Of a stretch of 64,000 nucleotides of DNA, positions 34,678 to 46,074 are shown piece by piece. The position numbers and the translations under genes are program-made. Source of the DNA: Collinsella ihumii (GTDB lineage: Bacteria; Actinomycetota; Coriobacteriia; Coriobacteriales; Coriobacteriaceae); assembly GCF_900046475.1 (NCBI RefSeq), contig NZ_FCOU01000013.1:1-64000 (forward strand), in the 5' to 3' direction. Each line of letters starts with the position of its first letter. Positions within the stretch are counted from its first letter, which is position 1. A model generated the notes under the pieces. It made no database searches and was not told where the DNA came from. It worked only from the letters and a program-made list of their open reading frames with translations.

Positions 34678-35373
34678 ATGAGAATCTTGTTGGTAGAGGA
34701 TGCGCGCCTGGTCGCCGAGCCGCTCACCCACGCACTCGGGCGCGCCGGATACGCGGTTGACGCGGCGTGCGACGGGGCGCGGGGGCTCGAGCTCGCGTGC
34801 ACGGGAGCCTATGACGCCATCGTGCTCGACATCATGCTTCCGCAGCTCGACGGCCTGTCGATGCTCGCGAAGCTGCGCCGTGAGCGCATCGACACGCCGG
34901 TCATCCTGCTGACGGCTCGCGGCGACGTGCGCGACCGCGTGCGCGGGCTCGACGCGGGCGCCGACGACTACCTGGCCAAGCCCTTCCATGTGGAGGAGCT
35001 GCTGGCGCGCATCCGCGCCGTGTTGCGCCGCCGCGGAGCTCCCGACTCGGCAACGGCCATTCAAGAGCTGGGCCTTTGCTACGTTCCCGAATCGCGCGAG
35101 CTGCAGCATGAGGGCGTGTCGGTGGCGCTCACGCCCAAAGAGGGCCTGGTGCTCGAGGCGCTGATGCGCGCTTCTGGGCACACGGTCACGCGAGAGCGCC
35201 TTGAGCTCGCGGTGTGGGGGCCGGACGACGCGGCGTCGGACACCCGGCTGGACGTGCAGGTGTCGCTCGTGCGCACGAAGCTGCGCGCGGTCGGCGCGCC
35301 CGTGCGCATCCGGGCGGTGCGAGGCATGGGCTACGTGCTGGAAGAGGAGGGGGAGGGCCGTGAAAGATCATGA
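34678..35373 (+). CDS. OmpR-family response regulator
   Basis: A 231-residue two-component regulator. Receiver domain: acidic pocket VED near residue 8, phospho-acceptor Asp51 in DAIVLDIMLPQLDG, Lys101 in YLAKPF. A C-terminal winged helix begins about residue 130 and includes LTPKEGLVLEALMR, VTRERLELAVWG and RLDVQVSLVRTKLRAVG. The ATG at 34678 has GAGGAG 6 bases upstream. The next gene, the histidine kinase, overlaps it by 14 bases. Confidence 0.94.
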   Translation: MRILLVEDARLVAEPLTHALGRAGYAVDAACDGARGLELACTGAYDAIVLDIMLPQLDGLSMLAKLRRERIDTPVILLTARGDVRDRVRGLDAGADDYLAKPFHVEELLARIRAVLRRRGAPDSATAIQELGLCYVPESRELQHEGVSVALTPKEGLVLEALMRASGHTVTRERLELAVWGPDDAASDTRLDVQVSLVRTKLRAVGAPVRIRAVRGMGYVLEEEGEGRERS

Positions 35374-36256
35374 GCTCAAGCGTTTTCGTCGTCGCATCGT
35401 CGCTGCGGCCGCAGGGGCGCTCACGGTTTGCGTCGCGCTCTGCATGGCCGCCTTGTGCTATGTGGTGGTGGACGCGAATCTCAGCGATTATCGCGCGAGG
35501 CTCGAGGACGCCTCGAACGCTCCGTTTTCGGGCGTTTCGGCGGATAGGCTCGATGCCCGCGAGGTGACGCTGCCGTCCGGCGGGATCTATCCGTCGGAGA
35601 CCGTTTGGAGGGCCCTTGTAAACGATGCGGGCGAGGTGCTGGAGGTGGCCCTGCCCGCGGTCGGCGATCAGTTCACGTGGACGCCCGACTCGGAGACGAC
35701 GTTCACCTCGAAGGACTTATCCGAGCTCGTCGGCCTGCGTGACGAGAAGGGATCCGCGCCGTTCGAGTATGCCGGCTGCACGTGGCTGGGCACCTGGCAG
35801 CCGGCGGGGGAGTCGGAGGACGGCATCACGGTGTCGCCCACCGGCGCGATTGAGGACGCGGAGGTCGCCGCGGATGCCGTCGGTTCCGATGCGGGCGATC
35901 GGGTCTATACCTTCATCGATATCTCCTATCATTATGACTACCTGCGAGGAATCGCGTTTCGCTGCATCGCTGCGACCATCGTGCTGTCGGCGGCGTCTGC
36001 GGCAGTCCTTTGGATCGCCGCCGGCCATCTGCTGCGCCCCGTGTATGCGGCGCGCAAGCGGGAGCAGGAGTTCGTCATCTCGGCATCGCATGAGCTCAAG
36101 ACGCCGCTCATGGCGATGATGGCAAACTGCGACGTGCTGGAAGCCGAGGCCGCAGGCGATGGGCGCCTGGCTCCATGGATCGCGAACATCCGCTCTGCCG
36201 CCGATGGAATGGCGGACTGCGTGGCGACCCTGCTGAATGCGGCAGGTGAACGGTAG
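35360..36256 (+). CDS. Sensor histidine kinase lacking the ATP-binding domain
   Basis: 298 residues from a GTG at 35360 with GGGAGG upstream. It has a membrane helix (about 13-36), an extracytoplasmic sensor region of about 160 residues, and a second helix (about 200-222). A dimerisation/phospho-acceptor helix with His244 in EFVISASHELKTPL and its second helix end at LLNAAGER. The HATPase_c domain with N, G1 and G2 boxes, normally another 110 residues, is absent. A stop followed at once by a strong hairpin ends the gene. It cannot autophosphorylate unaided; it may be a decayed kinase, a phosphatase-only form, or a partner needing another kinase. Confidence 0.85.
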   Translation: MKDHELKRFRRRIVAAAAGALTVCVALCMAALCYVVVDANLSDYRARLEDASNAPFSGVSADRLDAREVTLPSGGIYPSETVWRALVNDAGEVLEVALPAVGDQFTWTPDSETTFTSKDLSELVGLRDEKGSAPFEYAGCTWLGTWQPAGESEDGITVSPTGAIEDAEVAADAVGSDAGDRVYTFIDISYHYDYLRGIAFRCIAATIVLSAASAAVLWIAAGHLLRPVYAARKREQEFVISASHELKTPLMAMMANCDVLEAEAAGDGRLAPWIANIRSAADGMADCVATLLNAAGER

Positions 36257-36413: not shown

Positions 36414-36476
36414 ATGCTGTTCCCCGATGTGAAAAGTCGGGGGGGGGCTTTCATAGACAGGCTCTTCCTTCGGTAG
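36414..36476 (+). CDS. Short leader ORF containing a G9 tract
   Basis: A 20-codon ORF (MLFPDVKSRGGAFIDRLFLR) with GAGGAGAAGG directly before its ATG. The run of nine G at 36439-36447 encodes Arg-Gly-Gly. If the tract had ten G, the frame would run to a TAA at 36530-36532 that directly abuts the ATG of the helicase gene, giving translational coupling. At nine G it stops 57 bases short. Homopolymeric G tracts slip readily, so this may be an on/off switch for the restriction operon. The leader's translation is not proven. Confidence 0.5.
   Translation: MLFPDVKSRGGAFIDRLFLR
36439..36447. repeat. Homopolymeric G9 tract
   Basis: Nine consecutive G in an otherwise moderate-GC region, inside the short leader ORF 86 bases before the helicase start. 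Tracts of this kind vary by slipped-strand mispairing in many bacteria and are also prone to sequencing length error. Confidence 0.8.
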
Positions 36477-36532
36477 CAAATATCAATATCGCAGGTTTGC
36501 GCCGCGCGCATTGGTTGATGGCGGTTTCCTAA

Positions 36533-39500
36533 ATGGACGCCGCCTTTATCGACAACCGAGCGCGTGTCCTTAAAGATGACCTCGTGAATACGGTTCACAG
36601 CGGCGACTCCATATCGGTTGCCGCATCGGTCTTTTCCATGTATGCCTATCGCGAGCTGCGCGAGCGGCTCGAGGGGCTCGATGAATTTAGATTCATCTTT
36701 ACCGAGCCCACTTTTGCCACGGAGCGTGCCGCGAAGGAGCAACGCGAATTCTACATCCCGCGTCTTTCGCGCGAGCAGGGGTTGTACGGTACCGAGTTTG
36801 AAATCAAGCTGCGCAACGAGCTCACGCAAAAAGCCATAGCGGGTGAATGTGCTCGTTGGATACGAAAGAAGGCGACTTTCAAGTCGCCCAAATCTGGGGT
36901 GGCTTCGGTTACGCCTGCGCTCACGGTATCGGGCCACAACGATGCTGTCACCTACATGCCGATGATGAACGGATTCACCGTAGGCCAGCTCGGCATGGGC
37001 GACCACCCTACGCTCACTGGTATCCAACGTAGCGATTCCCAATCATCGTGCATGTTCCTAGGTCTGTTCGATCAAGTATGGCAGAGCGGTGAGCTTGAGG
37101 ACGTAACCGCAACCGTAACGGAAAACATCGAGCAGATGTATCGGGAGAATCCACCCGAGCTTATCTATTACGTGGCTCTCTATCGCATCTTTCATGAGTT
37201 TTTGGACGACGTGTCCACCGACAACCTGCCCAAGGAGGGGACCGGCTTTCGCGATAGCAAGATCTGGAACCTGCTCTATGACTTCCAGCGCGATGCGGTG
37301 CTGGCGATTATCAACAAGCTGCAGACCTATAACGGTTGCATCTTGGCTGATAGCGTCGGTTTGGGCAAGACGTTTACGGCGCTCGCGGTCATCAAGTATT
37401 ACGAATCCCTCAACCGCAATGTGCTGGTGCTTTGCCCGAAGAAGCTCTCGGACAACTGGACCACATACCGCAACAACCAGAAGAACAATCCCATTGCGGA
37501 GGACCGCCTGCGCTATGACGTGCTCTACCATACCGACCTTTCGCGCAAGCGCGGACGAAGCGCCACGGGTATCGATCTTGAGGCGTTCAACTGGGGCGGT
37601 TACGACCTCGTCGTCATCGACGAGTCCCATAACTTCCGCAACGGCGAGGATTCGGCACGCGCGGCAAAGGACGATGGCTCCGGTGGTGTCGAGAATCGCT
37701 ATCAGCGCCTGCTGAGTCGCGTTCTTCGCGGGGGAGTGCCCACGAAGGTGCTCATGCTGTCGGCTACACCGGTCAACAATCGGTTCCGCGATTTGCGGAA
37801 CCAACTCGCCCTTGCGTATCAGGGTGATTCCGATGGGTGGTCCGAGCGTCTGGGGCTATCCAGCAACATAGAGGACGTGTTCCGTCGGGCGCAGGCCTCC
37901 TTTTCCGCGTGGAGCGACCTGCCGGCTGAGGAGCGCACGACCGAGGCGCTCACGGAGTCGTTGGATTTCGATTTCTTCCGCGTGCTCGACCAGGTAACCG
38001 TTGCGCGCTCGCGCCGCCATATCCAGCGCTACTACGATGTGAGCGTCATCGGGCCGTTCCCGGAGCGCAAGAAACCCATCTCGGTCTATCCCAAGCTCTC
38101 GACGTTGGAGCATGGCCCGACATACAGCGAGATCGCCGACTCTCTCAATCTGCTCACGCTGGCAGTCTACGTGCCCTCGCAGTACGTATTGCCGAGCACT
38201 GCATACAAGTACGAGAGCGAAAACGGAAACCTTACCAACAGAGGCCGCGAAACGGGGGTGCGCCGACTGATGGCGGCAAACCTTCTCAAGCGCTTGGAGA
38301 GCTCGGTTTCCTCGTTTCGCCTGACATTGGAACGCGTGCTTTCTGTCATGAATGCATGTCTGGGCACCATCGAGGCGTTCAAGGAGACGGGAGCGTCGAC
38401 ATCGAGCGTAAACATTGCCACTTATCAGGAGGGTTTTGATTTCGATGCGGACGATAGCGAGGTCATGGACTTCTCGGTAGGAGGGAAGACCCGCTATGAC
38501 CTGCGCGACCTCGATTGGAAAAGCTGGGAGCGCGATGTGCGCGATGACGCTCAGACCATCGAGGGCCTGCTTGCCATGATTGATGATATAGATGCCGCGC
38601 GCGATGCCAAGCTGCTCGATCTCAAGAAGCTCATCGCGCGGAAGGTGACGAACCCCATCAATCCGGGGAATAGGAAAGTCATCATCTTCACGGCGTTCGC
38701 CGATACGGCAAACTATCTGTACGAGCAGATCGCCCCCTATGTTTCGGAGAGCTTGGGCCTCGGCGTTGCCGAAGTGACGGGTACGGGCGGTGGCAAGACC
38801 ACCGTCAAGGGTGTGCGCGGCGACTTGGCGGAAATCCTCACCTGCTTCTCGCCGGTCTCCAAGGAGCGCGACAAAGTCTATCCGCGCCTGGCGGGCAAGG
38901 ACATCGATATCCTCATCGCTACGGATTGCATCTCGGAAGGCCAGAACCTGCAGGATGCCGACTACCTCGTGAACTACGACATCCACTGGAACCCCGTGCG
39001 CATCGTCCAGCGATTCGGCCGTGTTGACCGAATCGGCTCGAAGAACAGCGCGATCCAGCTCGTCAACTTCTGGCCGGATGATGATCTGGACCACTACATC
39101 AACCTCAAAGCGCGCGTGGAGAATCGCATGCACGCCGTGGTGATGAGCTCAACCGGCGATGACGACTACATCAACGAGGACGAACAAGGCGACCTTGCAT
39201 ACCGTCGCCAGCAACTCGAGCAGATGCAACATGAGGTGGTCGATCTTGAGGACGTTTCGGGCGGTGTATCCATTACCGACCTCGGCCTCAATGAGTTCCG
39301 GATGGATTTGGTTGCCTACTACCAAGAGAACCCAGACATCGACTGTGTTCCCACGGGCATCGATGCTGTTGTAGCGGGTGATGAGCCCGGCGTGATCTTC
39401 GTACTGCGCAATGTGAGCCAGCAGCTCGATGCGAAGACGCGCAACCAGATTCATCCGTTTTACCTGGTGTATGTGGGCGACGACGGCGAGGTGCGGCATG

Positions 39501-39793
39501 GCTACCTCGACCCCAAGGACACGCTCGATGCCATGCGGCGCTTGTGCCGGGGCAAAGGTGAGCCGGATGCAGACCTTTGCCGCGAGTACAACAGAGTCAC
39601 TAAGAATGGCCGCGATATGCGTGCGGCTTCGAACATGCTGAGAAGCGCTATCGAATCCATCGTAGATAAGAAGGCCGAAGAGGACCTGAGGAGCTTCTTT
39701 ACGGCGGGCACAACCAGCTTTTTGGAAAACGACGTGGCAGGGCTCGACGACTTCGAACTCATCTGCTTCTTGGTGGTGAGGCCCCATGAGTAG
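36533..39793 (+). CDS. SNF2-type helicase of a restriction/defence operon
   Basis: A 1086-residue superfamily 2 helicase. The N-terminal 200 residues resemble the phospholipase-D-like region of related helicases, but I see no HxK motif. The motor contains GCILADSVGLGKTFTALAVI (about 271-290), VVIDESHNFRN (DESH), VLMLSATPVNNRFRD, ILIATDCISEGQNLQDADYL and QRFGRVDRIGSKNSAIQL. The C-terminal 230 residues are specific to this family. It overlaps the next gene by 8 bases and is the first gene of the cluster helicase-DUF4391-Mod. The likely role is DNA translocation within a restriction or anti-phage complex. The upstream ribosome site is weak. Confidence 0.88.
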   Translation: MDAAFIDNRARVLKDDLVNTVHSGDSISVAASVFSMYAYRELRERLEGLDEFRFIFTEPTFATERAAKEQREFYIPRLSREQGLYGTEFEIKLRNELTQKAIAGECARWIRKKATFKSPKSGVASVTPALTVSGHNDAVTYMPMMNGFTVGQLGMGDHPTLTGIQRSDSQSSCMFLGLFDQVWQSGELEDVTATVTENIEQMYRENPPELIYYVALYRIFHEFLDDVSTDNLPKEGTGFRDSKIWNLLYDFQRDAVLAIINKLQTYNGCILADSVGLGKTFTALAVIKYYESLNRNVLVLCPKKLSDNWTTYRNNQKNNPIAEDRLRYDVLYHTDLSRKRGRSATGIDLEAFNWGGYDLVVIDESHNFRNGEDSARAAKDDGSGGVENRYQRLLSRVLRGGVPTKVLMLSATPVNNRFRDLRNQLALAYQGDSDGWSERLGLSSNIEDVFRRAQASFSAWSDLPAEERTTEALTESLDFDFFRVLDQVTVARSRRHIQRYYDVSVIGPFPERKKPISVYPKLSTLEHGPTYSEIADSLNLLTLAVYVPSQYVLPSTAYKYESENGNLTNRGRETGVRRLMAANLLKRLESSVSSFRLTLERVLSVMNACLGTIEAFKETGASTSSVNIATYQEGFDFDADDSEVMDFSVGGKTRYDLRDLDWKSWERDVRDDAQTIEGLLAMIDDIDAARDAKLLDLKKLIARKVTNPINPGNRKVIIFTAFADTANYLYEQIAPYVSESLGLGVAEVTGTGGGKTTVKGVRGDLAEILTCFSPVSKERDKVYPRLAGKDIDILIATDCISEGQNLQDADYLVNYDIHWNPVRIVQRFGRVDRIGSKNSAIQLVNFWPDDDLDHYINLKARVENRMHAVVMSSTGDDDYINEDEQGDLAYRRQQLEQMQHEVVDLEDVSGGVSITDLGLNEFRMDLVAYYQENPDIDCVPTGIDAVVAGDEPGVIFVLRNVSQQLDAKTRNQIHPFYLVYVGDDGEVRHGYLDPKDTLDAMRRLCRGKGEPDADLCREYNRVTKNGRDMRAASNMLRSAIESIVDKKAEEDLRSFFTAGTTSFLENDVAGLDDFELICFLVVRPHE

Positions 39794-40427
39794 CCTCACG
39801 CTGGGGCTGCCGAGCACCGTGTTGGTGGGAAAGACGATGCCCAAGAAGCTTTTCTATGAATTCCTTGCAACAACCGCTGCTGTCAAAGACGAGTTCGTGC
39901 GGCTCATTGAGCGCATCGATATGGTCGCCTCGATAAAAGAGGAGACGCTGCATATTCCCGCTAGTGGCGAGGTTAATGAGATTGATGTCCTGGGGCTTTA
40001 TCTGCGTGTGGGTGATAGAGCTGGGGCTGAGGCACCCTACGCGGCCATTGATCTCATTGCGAAGAGTGTGTCCAGCAAGGTGCTGTTTGTCTGCGAGACG
40101 GATGACGCAGTGAAGTTGCTCGTGCGGCGAGATCGGTTGTACGAAACCGCTTGGTTGCCATGTGACGAGACGACAGTTGAGCTGCGAGGATCAACCTTGG
40201 TTGAGCTTTGGGACTCCTTGAGTTCTCAAGTGGTGTTCGGCAATAGCGAGCCTGGCGATTTTGCCGGGCGCGTTGAGCGCAAAAATCGCATTGAGGAACT
40301 TCAAGGCGAGCTGGTGTCAATAAATAAAAAACGTAAATCAGAGAAGCAGATTGCAAAACGCAATGCACTGTTTGATCGCGCACGCGCGATCAAACAGGAG
40401 CTTGCCCGACTTGAAGCAGGTGCCTGA
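39786..40427 (+). CDS. DUF4391 domain protein
   Basis: A 213-residue protein that begins LTLGLPSTVLVGKTMPKKLF, the usual opening of DUF4391. A central beta-rich part (VNEIDVLGLYLRVGDRAG, VSSKVLFVCETDDAVKLLVR) and a C-terminal basic coiled coil (KNRIEELQGELVSINKKRKS) follow. The family has no established activity that I know of, but it recurs between SNF2-type helicases and type III methyltransferases, as here. It overlaps both neighbours (8 bases and 1 base), so the three proteins are made together and probably act as a complex. Confidence 0.82.
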   Translation: MSSLTLGLPSTVLVGKTMPKKLFYEFLATTAAVKDEFVRLIERIDMVASIKEETLHIPASGEVNEIDVLGLYLRVGDRAGAEAPYAAIDLIAKSVSSKVLFVCETDDAVKLLVRRDRLYETAWLPCDETTVELRGSTLVELWDSLSSQVVFGNSEPGDFAGRVERKNRIEELQGELVSINKKRKSEKQIAKRNALFDRARAIKQELARLEAGA

Positions 40428-42301
40428 TGGAGAAGCTTTCGCATGCAACCGAGAACATTCTGGACGAGAACGTCGAGAAGCTCGCCGAGCTCTTTCCCGA
40501 GGTGGTGACCGAGGTCCGTGAGCCCGATGGAAGCCTGCGCCATACCATCGATGTCGAAGCGCTGAAAGAGCGTGTGGGTGACGTCGCTGAGGGTCAACGC
40601 GAACGCTATCAGTTCACGTGGCCGGGCAAGCGTGATGCCAAACAGGAGGCGTATCGCCCTATCGACAAGTGCTTGCGCCCGTGTCCTGAGGAGAGCGTCA
40701 ACTGGGATACGACGGAGAACCTCTACATCGAGGGGGACAACCTCGATGCGTTGAAGCTTTTGCGCAACACCTATGCCGGCAAGAATGCCGGCAAGATTAA
40801 GATGATCTACATCGATCCGCCGTACAACACGGGGCATGACTTCATCTATGACGATGACTTCGCGCGCACCAAGACTGATTATGACGCCGAGAGCGGCGAC
40901 TACGACGAGGATGGCGGTCGCCTGGTTGCCAACCCCGAGTCCAACGGCCGCTTTCACTCCGACTGGTGCAGCATGATGTATCCGCGCCTGCTGCTTGCGA
41001 GGGATCTGCTGAGCGATGATGGAGTATTATTTGTGAGCTGCGACGATGGTGAGCAGGGGTCGCTTGACAGAATGCTCAATGAAATATTCGGAAACGATTG
41101 CCATCTCGGCGCTCTGATTCATCAGAGGGCGAAGGGCGGCGGTCAAGCGAAATATATCGTAAAGGGACATGATTATATTCATGTCTGTATCAAATCGACT
41201 CAATCCGATGTCTCTCTAGCGAGGAAAAAGATTGTTCAGGGCCGTACTTACGTCGTGGATGGTGTTTTGTGCATCAAGAACGATGATGTTGTGAGAAAGC
41301 AGTTCGGAAAGTACGATTCCGGGGTCGACCGTCGCTGTTTCTACGAGCAGTTGGAACAGTATAAGGGGATAAAGAAAAAACAGGAGATCGATTATCTTCT
41401 AAGACAAGGCAAGCTGTTTCTCGAAAAGAATTCCGAAGGAATGCACACGATTTGCGAGTGGATTCCGGTTAATTCGGCGACCTCTAAAATATATTCGATC
41501 ATCAAGGTGTTGTCTGAGGAAGGCAAGAAGGACCTCGAAGGACTTGGGGTGGAGGGTTTTTCCTACCCGAAGCCTGTTGAGCTAGTTTATCAGTTGGTTG
41601 AGGCAGCCACTTTGACTGATAAGAACGTGATAATTCTCGACTTCTTCTCCGGCTCCGCCACAACCGCTCATGCCGTCATGAAGCTCAATGCTGAAGACGG
41701 CGGCAACCGCAAGTTCATCATGGTGCAGCTGCCCGAAGTTTGTGGACCGGAGACGGAGGCGGCCAAGGCGGGCTACAAGAACATCTGCGAAATCGGCAAG
41801 GAGCGCATCCGCCGTGCGGGCAAGAAGATTGCCGACGAGGTGGAGCAGTCCAACCGGCAGCTCAAACTCGGCGAGGAGCCCAAGAAGGTCCCAGACATCG
41901 GTTTCCGCGTGCTCAAGATCGACTCGTCCAACTTCGAGGACGTTTCGGCTGAGCCCGCGGCTTACACCCAGGAGTCACTCATGGGCCTTGCGGACAACCT
42001 CAAGCCCGGTCGCACGGCGGAGGATATCCTGTTCCAGGTGATGCTGCAGTTCCAGATTCCGTTGTCTGTAAGCATCGAGCGCAAGAGTATCAACGGCTCC
42101 ACGGTGTTCTCGGTTGACGACGGTCGCCTCGCAGCCTGCTTCGACCGTGACGTTTCAACGGACACCATCGCCGAGATGGCCAAGATGGAACCCGATTACG
42201 CCGTGATGCGCGACGCTTCCTTCGCGGGCGACGACGCCGTTTCCAACTTCGGCGAGCTCTTCAAAACGTATAGCCCCACCACCATCACGAGAGTGGTGTA
42301 G
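40427..42301 (+). CDS. mod: Type III restriction-modification DNA methyltransferase (Mod)
   Basis: A 624-residue N6-adenine methyltransferase. The catalytic motif DPPYNTG is at about residue 130 and the AdoMet motif DFFSGSATTAHAVMKL at about 405, the order of the beta class used by type III Mod. The segment between (residues about 200-400, bases 41030-41640) is the target-recognition domain. It is visibly A/T-richer than its flanks; the 60 bases from 41341 are 38% GC by hand count. The domain was probably swapped in horizontally, changing the methylated site. The last 150 residues are the normal Mod tail. It overlaps DUF4391 by one base (TGATG-type). Confidence 0.93.
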   Translation: MEKLSHATENILDENVEKLAELFPEVVTEVREPDGSLRHTIDVEALKERVGDVAEGQRERYQFTWPGKRDAKQEAYRPIDKCLRPCPEESVNWDTTENLYIEGDNLDALKLLRNTYAGKNAGKIKMIYIDPPYNTGHDFIYDDDFARTKTDYDAESGDYDEDGGRLVANPESNGRFHSDWCSMMYPRLLLARDLLSDDGVLFVSCDDGEQGSLDRMLNEIFGNDCHLGALIHQRAKGGGQAKYIVKGHDYIHVCIKSTQSDVSLARKKIVQGRTYVVDGVLCIKNDDVVRKQFGKYDSGVDRRCFYEQLEQYKGIKKKQEIDYLLRQGKLFLEKNSEGMHTICEWIPVNSATSKIYSIIKVLSEEGKKDLEGLGVEGFSYPKPVELVYQLVEAATLTDKNVIILDFFSGSATTAHAVMKLNAEDGGNRKFIMVQLPEVCGPETEAAKAGYKNICEIGKERIRRAGKKIADEVEQSNRQLKLGEEPKKVPDIGFRVLKIDSSNFEDVSAEPAAYTQESLMGLADNLKPGRTAEDILFQVMLQFQIPLSVSIERKSINGSTVFSVDDGRLAACFDRDVSTDTIAEMAKMEPDYAVMRDASFAGDDAVSNFGELFKTYSPTTITRVV

Positions 42302-42315
42302 ATATGGGCGATCAG

Positions 42316-42594
42316 CTATCGGTAAAAGCGCAGCATATCGGTCTTGAAGACATTCTTCCATGCGTCGCAGATGCGTCCGTGGTTAAGCGCGATGAAGTTC
42401 GCGAGCTTTCTCAGCTCCTTATTGGGAAGATTGCTCCCGTTGCTGGCGAGGATGCAACCGCCGTCTTCGGTCAGCCAGAACTTCGTGGCATGCTCCGTTG
42501 GCCTGCGGACGGCGACATGGATGTGGACCGGCTCGTCGGGTTCATTCATCCAAAAGAACAGAACGTAGCGTCCGAGTGTGAGGATCGTCGGCAT
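42316..42594 (-). CDS. DUF4160 family protein
   Basis: A 92-residue protein that matches DUF4160, a small family usually paired with a second small protein in toxin-antitoxin-like or regulatory pairs. Typical features are the start PTILTLGRYVLFFWMNEPDE, the His pair in PVHIHVAVRR, AKFWLTEDG, and NHGRICDAWKNVF. It is encoded antiparallel to the restriction genes, between mod and res. Its ATG overlaps the stop of the partner gene (TGATG), so the two are translationally coupled. A guard or toxin role for the island is possible but not shown. Confidence 0.82.
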   Translation of the reverse strand: MPTILTLGRYVLFFWMNEPDEPVHIHVAVRRPTEHATKFWLTEDGGCILASNGSNLPNKELRKLANFIALNHGRICDAWKNVFKTDMLRFYR

Positions 42595-42872
42595 CAGGCA
42601 GCTCTCCATCCGCCTTCGGGATCGCTTGCGAACTCAAAGATGAGGGGCGCATTATCACGCAGGAACGACTCGAGGTTATCGAGGTCGCTCTCGGAGAACC
42701 CGTCGACATCGAGCCAGCGGTATGCGGGCATAAGGCAGCGCGCGCTGTCGAAGCCCCAATCGCGGGGACGCTCTATGAGGATCTCGACCGTGCAGTCATC
42801 GCGCATGTCGCTGTATGCGATGACTGTTTCGTCGGGGAATTGAGCATAGGGGCGGACCAAGATTGCCTCCAT
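42594..42872 (-). CDS. Small partner of DUF4160 protein, unknown
   Basis: About 92 residues from an ATG at 42872. A TTG 12 bases further in has a better ribosome site (GGAGG) and would drop the first residues. The protein (RPYAQFPDETVIAYSDMRDD, then VDGFSESDLDNLESFLRDNA) occupies the position where a DUF2442-type partner is usually found, but I do not recognise the family from sequence. It is the first gene of a two-gene minus-strand unit with DUF4160, divergent from res, with 46 bases between the two starts. Confidence 0.65.
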   Translation of the reverse strand: MEAILVRPYAQFPDETVIAYSDMRDDCTVEILIERPRDWGFDSARCLMPAYRWLDVDGFSESDLDNLESFLRDNAPLIFEFASDPEGGWRAA

Positions 42873-42918: not shown

Positions 42919-45900
42919 ATGGAATTCAAGTTCAGCATCCAAGAGTATCAGACGCGCGCGGCGGATTCGGTGGCGCGCGTGTTCGACGGGCAGCCCAAGG
43001 TCGAGGGACAGCAGTTCGTGCGCGATCTTGGCCGTACGCGGTTCGACACAAAGACGGGTACGGAGGCCATCCAGTATGAATCCTCGGACGGCTATCGCAA
43101 CGCTCCGCTTGCGCTAGGTCCTGATGCGTTGCTGGATAACATCCACAAGATACAGGACGGCAACCTCATCGAGCGTTCCTCAGCGCTTCACCATGCACTC
43201 GGCGCCTGCGAGCTCGACGTTGAGATGGAGACGGGCACGGGCAAGACCTACGTCTACACCGAGACCATCTTCGAGCTCAATCGCCGCTACGGGTGGTCGA
43301 AGTTCATCATCGTAGTGCCGAGCGTCGCCATCCGTGAGGGCGTAGCAAAATCACTTGCCGTGACGGAACGGCACTTCGCGGAGCGTTACGGTAAGCGAAT
43401 CTGGTGGTTCGTCTACAACAGCAGCCGTCTGAACGAACTCGACAGCTTCGCCAGCCGCAGCGATATCTCCGTCATGGTCATCAATATGCAGGCTTTCAAC
43501 GCGTTTGATGAGTCCAAAAACAAGGAGGGCCGCGGCGGCGACAAAACGGCGCGCATCATGTTCTCCGAGCGCGATGACTTCGGCAGTCGACGCCCCATCG
43601 ACGTGCTCGCCGCCACCAACCCCATCCTCATCCTCGATGAGCCGCAGAAGATGGGCAAGAAGAACAGCGCCACGCGCAAGGCAATGCAGCAGTTCAGGCC
43701 CTTGTTCTCCCTCGACTATTCCGCCACGCACGCCGAGCACCACAACGAGGTGTATGCGCTCGATGCGCTCGACGCCTACAACATGCGTCTCGTGAAGCGC
43801 ATCGAGGTGAAGGGTTTTGAGGTGCGGGGTATGCGCGGGACCGATGGATACCTTTGCCTGCAGGAGATTCGCGTGAGCAAGAATCATCCTCCGGTAGCGG
43901 TAATTGAGTTCACGCGTCGCATGGCAAGCGGAAGCATGAAGCGCGCCGTGAGGCAGTTCAACGAAGGCGATGACATCTTTGTCGCCTCGGGTGAGCTCGA
44001 AGCATACCGAAACGATTTCGTGATCGCGGAGATTGTTCCCGATCAGTGGGGCGCGTTAGGCCACGTCCGTTTCCGCAACGGCGAGGAGATCTGCTGCGGT
44101 GAGGTGGTGGGCGACTCCACCGGTGAGGATCTGCGTCGTGTGCAGATTCGTGAAACGATCAAGAGCCACATCCAAAAGGAGGAGGCTCTGTACGAGCGCG
44201 GCATCAAATGCCTCTCGCTCTTCTTCATCGACGAGGTGGCGAAATACCGCGCATACGATGACGACGGCAATGAGCTCACCGTCGGATACGGGAAGGTCTT
44301 CGAGGAAGAATACGCGGCGGCGGTCCGCGAGCGCCTCAGCAATCCGCAGATTGGCGATGAGCTGCCCGGATCCTACTCGGCATATCTTTCGAGCTTTACC
44401 GCTGACCAGGTGCACAAGGGGTACTTCTCTATCGACAAGAAGGGACGTGCGGTTGACAGCAAAACCAAGCGCGGCAGCGAGGATTCAGACGACGAGAGTG
44501 CGTACGACCTCATCCTCAAGAACAAAGAACGCCTGCTCTCCTTTGACGAGCCGACGCGCTTCATCTTTAGCCATTCGGCGCTGCGCGAGGGCTGGGATAA
44601 CCCCAACGTATTCCAAATCTGCACGCTCAAGGAGTCCGGTTCCGAGACGAGCAAGCGTCAGGAAGTCGGGCGCGGCATGCGCCTGTGCGTGAATCGCGAT
44701 GGCGACCGTCAGGACGTTTCCGCGCTGGGCGAGAATATGGTGCAGCGGGTGAATCTCCTCACGGTGATTGCGTCCGAAAGTTATACGTCGTACGTAAAGG
44801 GCCTTCAGGACGGCATGCGAGAGGAGCTGCGCAAGCGTCCTCAAGCGGTCACCGAGCAGTACCTGCTTCGCTTCCGCATTCCAAACGAGCAGGGTATCGA
44901 TATCGAATTCGATAGCTCGCAGGCGAGTATCGCACATGGATTCCTCGAGACGTTCGGCTATGTGGATAAGGACGGCGCCGTGACCGATCGCTATCGGGAT
45001 GGCGGGATTCGCGATGCGGATATCGCTTCATTGCCCGAGTCGTCCCGCACGGTTATCGAGCAGACGCGCCCGCTCATAGACGCAGCGCTGGCGAGCGTGT
45101 ACGACCAGTCTGTGCTCGACGGCATGTTTGAGAACGGCCTCGAGACGAAAGTGACCTCGAATCCGCTGAACGAGAACTTCGGGAGGAAGGAGTTTCAGGA
45201 ACTCTGGAACCGCATCAACTTCAAGCAGGCATATACCGTGCATTTTGATGATGCGGAACTGCGGCGCAAGGCGATCGATAACATCGATCGCAGCCTGACG
45301 GTATCGAAGGTGAGCTATCGGATGATAGTCGGAGAGCAACGGGAGTCCGCACGCGAGGACGAGCTTGCCGATGGATCGCATTTCTCCGTGCATAGCAGGA
45401 AGACCATGGACCTTGCGGCATCTGCTCCCGTCAACGTGAAGTACGATTTGGTGGGCGAGGTCGCTGCGCGCGCCCACATAACCCGCAAGAGTGCGGCAGC
45501 GATTCTATCCGGTATGAGTGCGTACAAGTTCCGCATGTTCCAGGACAACCCTGAAGAGTTCATCGCCAAGGTGGCCGCCGCCATCGTGGACGAGAAGGCA
45601 GCGATGGTGGTCGAGCACATCAGCTATAACCGGCTGAGCGAGCGGTACGACTCCGCCATCTTTACCGAGGAGATGCCCGAGAACCTTTCGCGTGCCTACC
45701 ATGCCCGCAAGAACGTTCAGGACTACGTGTTTCCCGATGGCTCGGCGGAGCGGTCGGTGGAGCGCCGCTTTGCAGAGGACCTCGATGCAGCGGAAGAGGT
45801 GTGCGTGTACGCGAAGCTGCCGCGCGCCTTCCAGATTCCGACGCCGGTGGGGAACTATGCGCCGGACTGGGCGATTGCGTTCAAGCGCGGCACGGTCAAG

Positions 45901-46074
45901 CACGTATTCTTCGTTGCGGAAACGAAGGGGTCCATGAAGAGCATGCAGCTGCGCGGGGTGGAGCGGGCGAAAATCGCATGCGCCCGTAAGCTGTTCAATA
46001 GTTTGGGCGATGCCGATGTGCGCTACGACGCCGTCGACAGCTTCGAGAGCCTGCTCGATCTTGTACGAGGATAA
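42919..46074 (+). CDS. res: Type III restriction enzyme Res subunit
   Basis: A 1051-residue helicase-nuclease. P-loop METGTGKTYVYTETI (about 103-117), the DEAD-like box ILILDEPQKMG, SATHAEHHN, FIFSHSALREGWDNPNVFQI and QEVGRGMRLCVN form the motor. The C-terminal PD-(D/E)xK nuclease is YAPDWAIAFKRG with VFFVAETKGS about ten residues later. With Mod it makes an ATP-dependent type III restriction enzyme that cuts about 25 bases from the site. It has its own start after the antiparallel pair; AAAGGTTATAACC lies just upstream. Confidence 0.93.
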   Translation: MEFKFSIQEYQTRAADSVARVFDGQPKVEGQQFVRDLGRTRFDTKTGTEAIQYESSDGYRNAPLALGPDALLDNIHKIQDGNLIERSSALHHALGACELDVEMETGTGKTYVYTETIFELNRRYGWSKFIIVVPSVAIREGVAKSLAVTERHFAERYGKRIWWFVYNSSRLNELDSFASRSDISVMVINMQAFNAFDESKNKEGRGGDKTARIMFSERDDFGSRRPIDVLAATNPILILDEPQKMGKKNSATRKAMQQFRPLFSLDYSATHAEHHNEVYALDALDAYNMRLVKRIEVKGFEVRGMRGTDGYLCLQEIRVSKNHPPVAVIEFTRRMASGSMKRAVRQFNEGDDIFVASGELEAYRNDFVIAEIVPDQWGALGHVRFRNGEEICCGEVVGDSTGEDLRRVQIRETIKSHIQKEEALYERGIKCLSLFFIDEVAKYRAYDDDGNELTVGYGKVFEEEYAAAVRERLSNPQIGDELPGSYSAYLSSFTADQVHKGYFSIDKKGRAVDSKTKRGSEDSDDESAYDLILKNKERLLSFDEPTRFIFSHSALREGWDNPNVFQICTLKESGSETSKRQEVGRGMRLCVNRDGDRQDVSALGENMVQRVNLLTVIASESYTSYVKGLQDGMREELRKRPQAVTEQYLLRFRIPNEQGIDIEFDSSQASIAHGFLETFGYVDKDGAVTDRYRDGGIRDADIASLPESSRTVIEQTRPLIDAALASVYDQSVLDGMFENGLETKVTSNPLNENFGRKEFQELWNRINFKQAYTVHFDDAELRRKAIDNIDRSLTVSKVSYRMIVGEQRESAREDELADGSHFSVHSRKTMDLAASAPVNVKYDLVGEVAARAHITRKSAAAILSGMSAYKFRMFQDNPEEFIAKVAAAIVDEKAAMVVEHISYNRLSERYDSAIFTEEMPENLSRAYHARKNVQDYVFPDGSAERSVERRFAEDLDAAEEVCVYAKLPRAFQIPTPVGNYAPDWAIAFKRGTVKHVFFVAETKGSMKSMQLRGVERAKIACARKLFNSLGDADVRYDAVDSFESLLDLVRG

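Follow-up and report, generated by a model that had tools for sequence, protein, structure and literature searches.

Among the described systems that resemble the locus reported here, the closest is the leader of the pil1 operon of Streptococcus gallolyticus (Danne et al. 2014), which carries repeats within a leader-peptide gene and switches the operon via transcription attenuation (PMC3894217). In pil1 and pil3, as is proposed for our locus, the length of the repeat sets the position where the leader ends, and this switches the downstream operon; pil1 and pil3 are otherwise characterised by GCAGA repeats, a premature terminator, transcription antitermination and pilus genes (PMC3894217), while our locus combines a poly-G tract, a stop codon that touches the next start codon, a ribosome site that is predicted to be buried, and defence operons, in Coriobacteriales. 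Poly-G slippage, the mechanism proposed here, switches Pgl, an anti-phage system of the actinobacterium Streptomyces coelicolor and a relative of BREX, but the tract is located in pglX, with no leader cistron (PMC4365076). The phase variation of type III mod genes, i.e. the phasevarions of Neisseria, Haemophilus and Helicobacter, also depends on a change in repeat length that switches the expression of a type III restriction-modification (R-M) system; there, the repeats lie within mod and switch methylation (PMC2667262, PMC3230613), while here the tract precedes the first gene of the operon and should switch the helicase, Mod and perhaps Res together, so that the switch, if true, would govern a whole operon and not one coding region.

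Attenuation by a repeat-bearing leader has, thus, already been published; in the open-licence literature we have found no report of a poly-G leader that is coupled by a stop-start junction or of a leader that is shared across defence systems, and a switch based on stop-start coupling is apparently undescribed there. Here, we present such an arrangement: a run of nine G, located in a tiny upstream gene, is probably a random on/off switch for an anti-phage gene cluster.

The restriction operon and its leader ORF

The operon is located on the forward (+) strand of the window, i.e. the whole stretch of 64,000 nucleotides that was analysed. Its first gene (36533..39793, +) encodes an SNF2/DEAD-like helicase of 1086 aa (Pfam Helicase_C, SNF2-rel_dom and ResIII; PADLOC C3a139 'HKD+Snf2', E 4.6e-125); it is followed by the gene of a DUF4391 protein (39786..40427, +; Pfam E 1.6e-31), which is kept beside the helicase in relatives, and by the gene of the type III methyltransferase, Mod (40427..42301, +; Pfam N6_N4_Mtase; PADLOC MTase_III, E 7.9e-190). 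The start of DUF4391 overlaps the end of the helicase gene and the start of Mod overlaps the stop of DUF4391, and therefore the three proteins are likely co-translated. An accessory ORF of 179 aa (42304..42843, +), without a Pfam or PADLOC match and with a partial relative in only one of the 14 loci compared (L010), is located between mod and the gene of the type III restriction subunit, Res (42919..46074, +; Pfam ResIII and RE_endonuc; PADLOC REase_III, E 1.5e-275); res starts 75 nt past the accessory ORF and may be partly independent. The adjoining genes of Mod (N6_N4_Mtase) and Res (ResIII plus endonuclease) identify a type III R-M system, and the gene order helicase-DUF4391-Mod-Res is common to most of the relatives compared.

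The operon is flanked upstream by the genes of a response regulator and a sensor kinase, and downstream by that of a tRNA-guanine transglycosylase. The sensor histidine kinase gene (35201-36256), which has a HisKA domain but not the ATPase domain, ends just upstream of the operon and has possibly been truncated by the insertion of the operon; the idea that the operon splits this gene was set aside, as no HATPase remnant occurs among the downstream ORFs scanned.

The leader ORF starts at the ATG at 36414, preceded by GAAGAGGAGAAGG; its ribosome site, AAGAGGAGA, has an anti-SD energy of -8.4 kcal/mol. The proposed slippage site is a homopolymer of nine G (36439..36447, +). As assembled, the leader ORF (36414..36476, +) is read directly as a product of 20 aa, MLFPDVKSRGGAFIDRLFLR, that ends at the TAG at 36474-36476. 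With ten G (or with 7 or 13), the frame extends over 36414..36532 (+) and yields a product of 39 aa, MLFPDVKSRGGGFHRQALPSVANINIAGLRRAHWLMAVS, whose stop codon, the TAA at 36530-36532, adjoins the helicase ATG at 36533; with eight G, the stop occurs even earlier than with nine. The window as assembled is, hence, in the predicted OFF phase. The initial annotation had given the same leader coordinates, the same stops at nine and ten G and the abutting TAA-ATG, all of them exact on re-reading, and the good ribosome site that it assigned to the leader is borne out by the anti-SD pairing.

The homopolymer is long enough to slip and one of its three phases couples the leader with the helicase, with an effect on expression that we infer; judged on the window alone, however, the pattern is non-significant. 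Runs of at least eight G give two matches in the window, against 2.7 expected for its composition, and 9% of dinucleotide-shuffled sequences likewise have one of the three frames ending at -3 to 0 of the ATG. The leader tract, ahead of the helicase gene, is the sole run of at least eight G or C in the window, and the same scan, which covered G/C runs only, found none within mod. In the operon genes tested, GGG accounts for only 13-17% of the Gly codons, and therefore the unbroken G tract is not explained by coding. The pattern becomes significant because it is conserved across relatives.

Conservation of the leader and its proposed coupling with the helicase start

Helicase relatives have been gathered from genome contigs and from Coriobacteriia genomes, and the set compared consists of distinct loci with a helicase identity of at least 68%. 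Among these, 15 loci from three families of Coriobacteriales, one of them the window, have a tract of 9-11 G in an equivalent position, some 60-165 nt ahead of the helicase start. In 15/15, a start codon with a ribosome site is located ahead of the tract and exactly one G-count phase has its end at 0, -1 or -3 nt relative to the start of the helicase gene, i.e. the coupling phase always places a stop within a few nucleotides of that start; the two non-coupling phases end 29-133 nt before it. The only locus at this level of identity that lacks the tract is L096 (73% helicase identity); the tract is absent from all of the more distant helicase loci examined, and in the viral contigs, where the helicase relatives are at most 59% identical, none has an upstream G tract and three leader patterns gave no match.

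The leaders of the 15 loci form five groups, whose likeness to one another is at the level of shuffled sequence (about 0.45); the architecture has therefore outlasted the sequence. The per-locus chance of the junction, estimated by shuffling, is 0.07-0.10 in four of the leader groups and 0.010-0.024 for each of the three Slackia-type leaders; as the loci inside one group are kin, the 15 loci do not represent 15 independent events. The leader/tract arrangement is almost certainly under selection, and the proposal of the initial annotation, that a one-base slip would connect or disconnect the leader ORF and the helicase start, gains support from the single coupling phase that is kept in all 15 loci despite their diverged leaders.

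Several tract-less helicase operons (L011, L015, L082 and L103-L109) have a gene of about 70 aa that weakly matches DUF6290 and ends immediately ahead of the helicase start; this DUF6290-like gene is perhaps a regulator at the same coupled position.

The helicase ribosome site had been described as weak, which holds only modestly by its anti-SD energy (-6.0 kcal/mol, compared to -8.4 for the leader, -6.9 for Mod and -3.8 for Res); the site is, rather, hidden in a predicted hairpin (36519..36546, +) that contains both the ribosome site and the start codon (GGCGGUUUCCUAAAUGGACGCCGCC), where the unpaired probability of the site is 0.12. The surrounding segment, 36448-36570, is predicted to fold at z = -3.07. 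The helicase site is predicted to be paired in every leader group: its mean unpaired probability is 0.17 in the 15 tract loci, compared to 0.50 in 42 homologues without a tract (p = 4e-8); the latter have a GC above 0.5, and the two sets are only roughly matched in GC. In clade A, a predicted 13-bp stem spans the whole site, AGGGGGUGG, together with the leader stop; 94.5% of its pairs are kept, compared to 37-68% when the stem is slid, and the changes in the 5' arm mostly preserve pairing. It is this slide control alone that favours the stem, as the covariation in clade A is non-significant against column shuffles (138 of 500), given a nearly invariant 3' arm and pair changes that are almost all one-sided.

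In the mechanism that we propose, the strong site of the leader would ensure that ribosomes always load there, while the helicase site, located downstream, would be folded into the hairpin. At one of the three lengths modulo 3 (in the window, 10 G), the leader frame would reach the stop that touches the helicase start, and the translating ribosome would open the hairpin and re-initiate or hand over (ON); at the other two lengths, the ribosome would leave the RNA 29-133 nt earlier and the hairpin would stay shut (OFF); polar or Rho effects may add to this. Slipped-strand mispairing would add or remove a G in the tract, at some presumed rate, and as the tract slips, single cells would toggle the helicase between ON and OFF at random; through the overlaps between the genes, DUF4391 and Mod would probably be switched along with the helicase. 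We consider it likely that the element is a slipped-strand phase-variable leader cistron that is translationally coupled to the defence operon, with a presumed coupling strength; coupling through the hidden ribosome site is reasonably probable as its main output. The element would offer a case of phase variation, by way of stop-start coupling, that can be tested directly.

An alternative, which we regard as unlikely, is that the tract switches the operon mainly through transcription attenuation or Rho polarity, with a long leader keeping the ribosomes on the RNA and preventing termination. Attenuation by a repeat-bearing leader is the mechanism demonstrated at pil1 (PMC3894217), and a strong terminator-like hairpin is located inside one of our leaders, the Slackia-type leader of L008/L098, where the coupling frame is open through the hairpin; the switch may therefore act through transcription in that relative. 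It is in this one relative that a terminator-like site has been found, while in the window no intrinsic terminator was found between the leader and the first gene. Moreover, attenuation does not need a stop so near the helicase start, yet in 15/15 loci one is kept at 0 to -3 nt, and the prediction of a buried ribosome site in every leader group also counts against attenuation.

Tract length and predicted state

Tracts of 9, 10 and 11 G occur among the related genomes, nine being the commonest length (10/15 loci). The lengths have been obtained from draft assemblies, where homopolymers may be wrong, and from one genome per species, so that the differences are between species and not within a strain. 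As assembled, nine of the 15 loci are in the coupling phase (ON) and six, including the window, are OFF; if the switch is true, surveys of gene presence would overstate expressed defence, since 6/15 operons read OFF here. The count of tract lengths, which the initial annotation had proposed as a check across related strains, has, thus, revealed across species variable tracts of 9-11 G and close pairs, from different species, that are one G apart. In three such pairs, each with the same leader and with helicase genes that are 89-92% identical in nucleotides, the members are L086 (G10, ON) and L091 (G9, OFF), L090 (G9, ON) and L093 (G10, OFF), and L087 (G9, ON) and L094 (G10, OFF); near-identical leaders that are one G apart have therefore opposite predicted states. 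The length of the leader before the tract shifts by one nucleotide between sub-clades, a shift for which the required tract length compensates, with the frame after the tract being kept; the tract length that corresponds to the ON state varies, accordingly, among leaders. The tracts are mostly exactly nine G long, a narrower spread than in some known switches, which counts against a switch. Judging from these sequence comparisons, the tract is very likely a slippage switch. A few further G9 runs of the window's own genome (L118, L133) have been discarded, as they are located in G-rich stretches that look like assembly artefacts.

Homopolymers of about nine nucleotides can slip during transcription, and it could be argued that RNA polymerase slips, or ribosomes shift frame, at the G tract, so that all cells have a low level of coupling, whether fixed or regulated, with no genetic switch; the predominance of nine G agrees with this reading. 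We find it improbable, given that close relatives that are one G apart swap their predicted states, that the ON length varies among leaders, and that pilin-like and surface-protein genes of the window's genus and order have like tracts in their own 5' end; in addition, a G8 tract has been proven to act as a genetic switch in Streptomyces, where it lies in pglX (PMC4365076). Returning to the genetic switch, the leader peptide itself might be a functional protein that is varied by the tract, as its good start and its first place in the operon would allow, but this is very improbable, since leaders of different groups show no sequence relationship and have only the place of the coupling stop in common. 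Lastly, a coincidence of a spurious short ORF and a G run upstream of the helicase gene, compatible with the window alone (P = 0.09 for the junction and a tract that is unremarkable for the composition), is refuted by the comparison, i.e. by the 15/15 loci, by leaders that are unrelated between groups and by the other defence operons described below, and is hardly credible.

Related tracts ahead of and within other genes

A search for the pattern in 397 genomes from the order, complemented by a BrxA search, has revealed the same leader design ahead of other defence genes. Nine genomes contain the tract motif of clade A: in six of them it accompanies the type III operon and in the other three (L246, L256 and L258) the leader precedes brxA, in BREX operons. 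The type III R-M and BREX versions of the clade A cassette are about 93% similar over about 460 nt, with the similarity ending at the start codon; this cassette serves both types of system within one genus. Other stop-start leaders of like design are located ahead of brxA in L241 and L298, ahead of the gene of an HmaA helicase in L233 and ahead of an IrrE-like gene in L259, while in L303 and L286 the leader overlaps brxA. In six more BREX operons (L283, L284, L300, L306, L324 and L328), the tract is located inside the 5' end of brxA itself, with L283 being OFF as assembled; as the brxA tract is located either in a leader or in the gene, BREX is targeted in two ways. One candidate, L232, has been left out of the count, as the frame to which it seems to be coupled is short and probably not a gene.

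The reading of the initial annotation, a switch of a restriction operon, is to be amended in that the leader design extends beyond that operon, to BREX, HmaA and the IrrE-like gene. We lean towards the view that the leader cistron, the poly-G tract and the hairpin-hidden site constitute a portable phase-switch cassette, placed before unrelated anti-phage operons (type III R-M with helicase, BREX and Hma) in gut Coriobacteriales, which would give populations random ON/OFF combinations of whole defence systems. If this is true, the anti-phage systems of common gut bacteria would be bet-hedged by one compact, exchangeable switch, with a presumed effect on phage resistance.

An ORF of 68 aa (MNSMPDWAAWGSLAEEQLAGEAEALLRES...), without a Pfam match, is likewise contained in the clade A cassette (L246, L247, L254, L258 ~1160-1619, in the orientation of the operon); it is common to the type III and BREX versions and is possibly part of the exchanged unit.

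In the tracts that are located inside coding regions of Coriobacteriales (brxA, pilin-like and surface genes), the lengths are the same as in the leaders and so is the place, a few codons past a good start; there, however, one phase joins the start to the protein itself, while the leader of the window is a separate ORF that is coupled by the stop-start junction. The order-wide pattern search places the tract of the surface-protein and pilin-like genes inside the gene's own 5' end. The multi-copy ATGCATGCAGCGG...G9 sequences of the window's genus, considered as copies of the leader, are actually the 5' ends of pilin-like genes. Such genes (L262-L272, L275, L278 and L279) have a tract of 9-11 G that separates the start codon from the signal motif, and are present in one to four copies per genome in ten genomes of the genus (G001, G003, G004, G006, G007, G012, G013, G022, G032 and G033). 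They have a Flp/Fap-like start, ...RGQSIIEYVLIIAVIGLVIVFAGPG, and one phase generally continues into the protein; the one tested has a DUF6273 tail. From their sequences, they look like a phase-variable surface family.

Large surface-type proteins (L236-L238, L240, L242-L244, L248, L249, L252, L255, L276, L280 and L281) have G9-G11 a few codons past the start, before the signal peptide, and classical phase variation within the coding region appears to be common across Coriobacteriales. In the window's own genome, two G9 tracts (L125 and L126, at G000 C7:177717 and C7:180808) are located in an apparent surface polysaccharide locus, one of them within a coding frame, and may be phase-variable.
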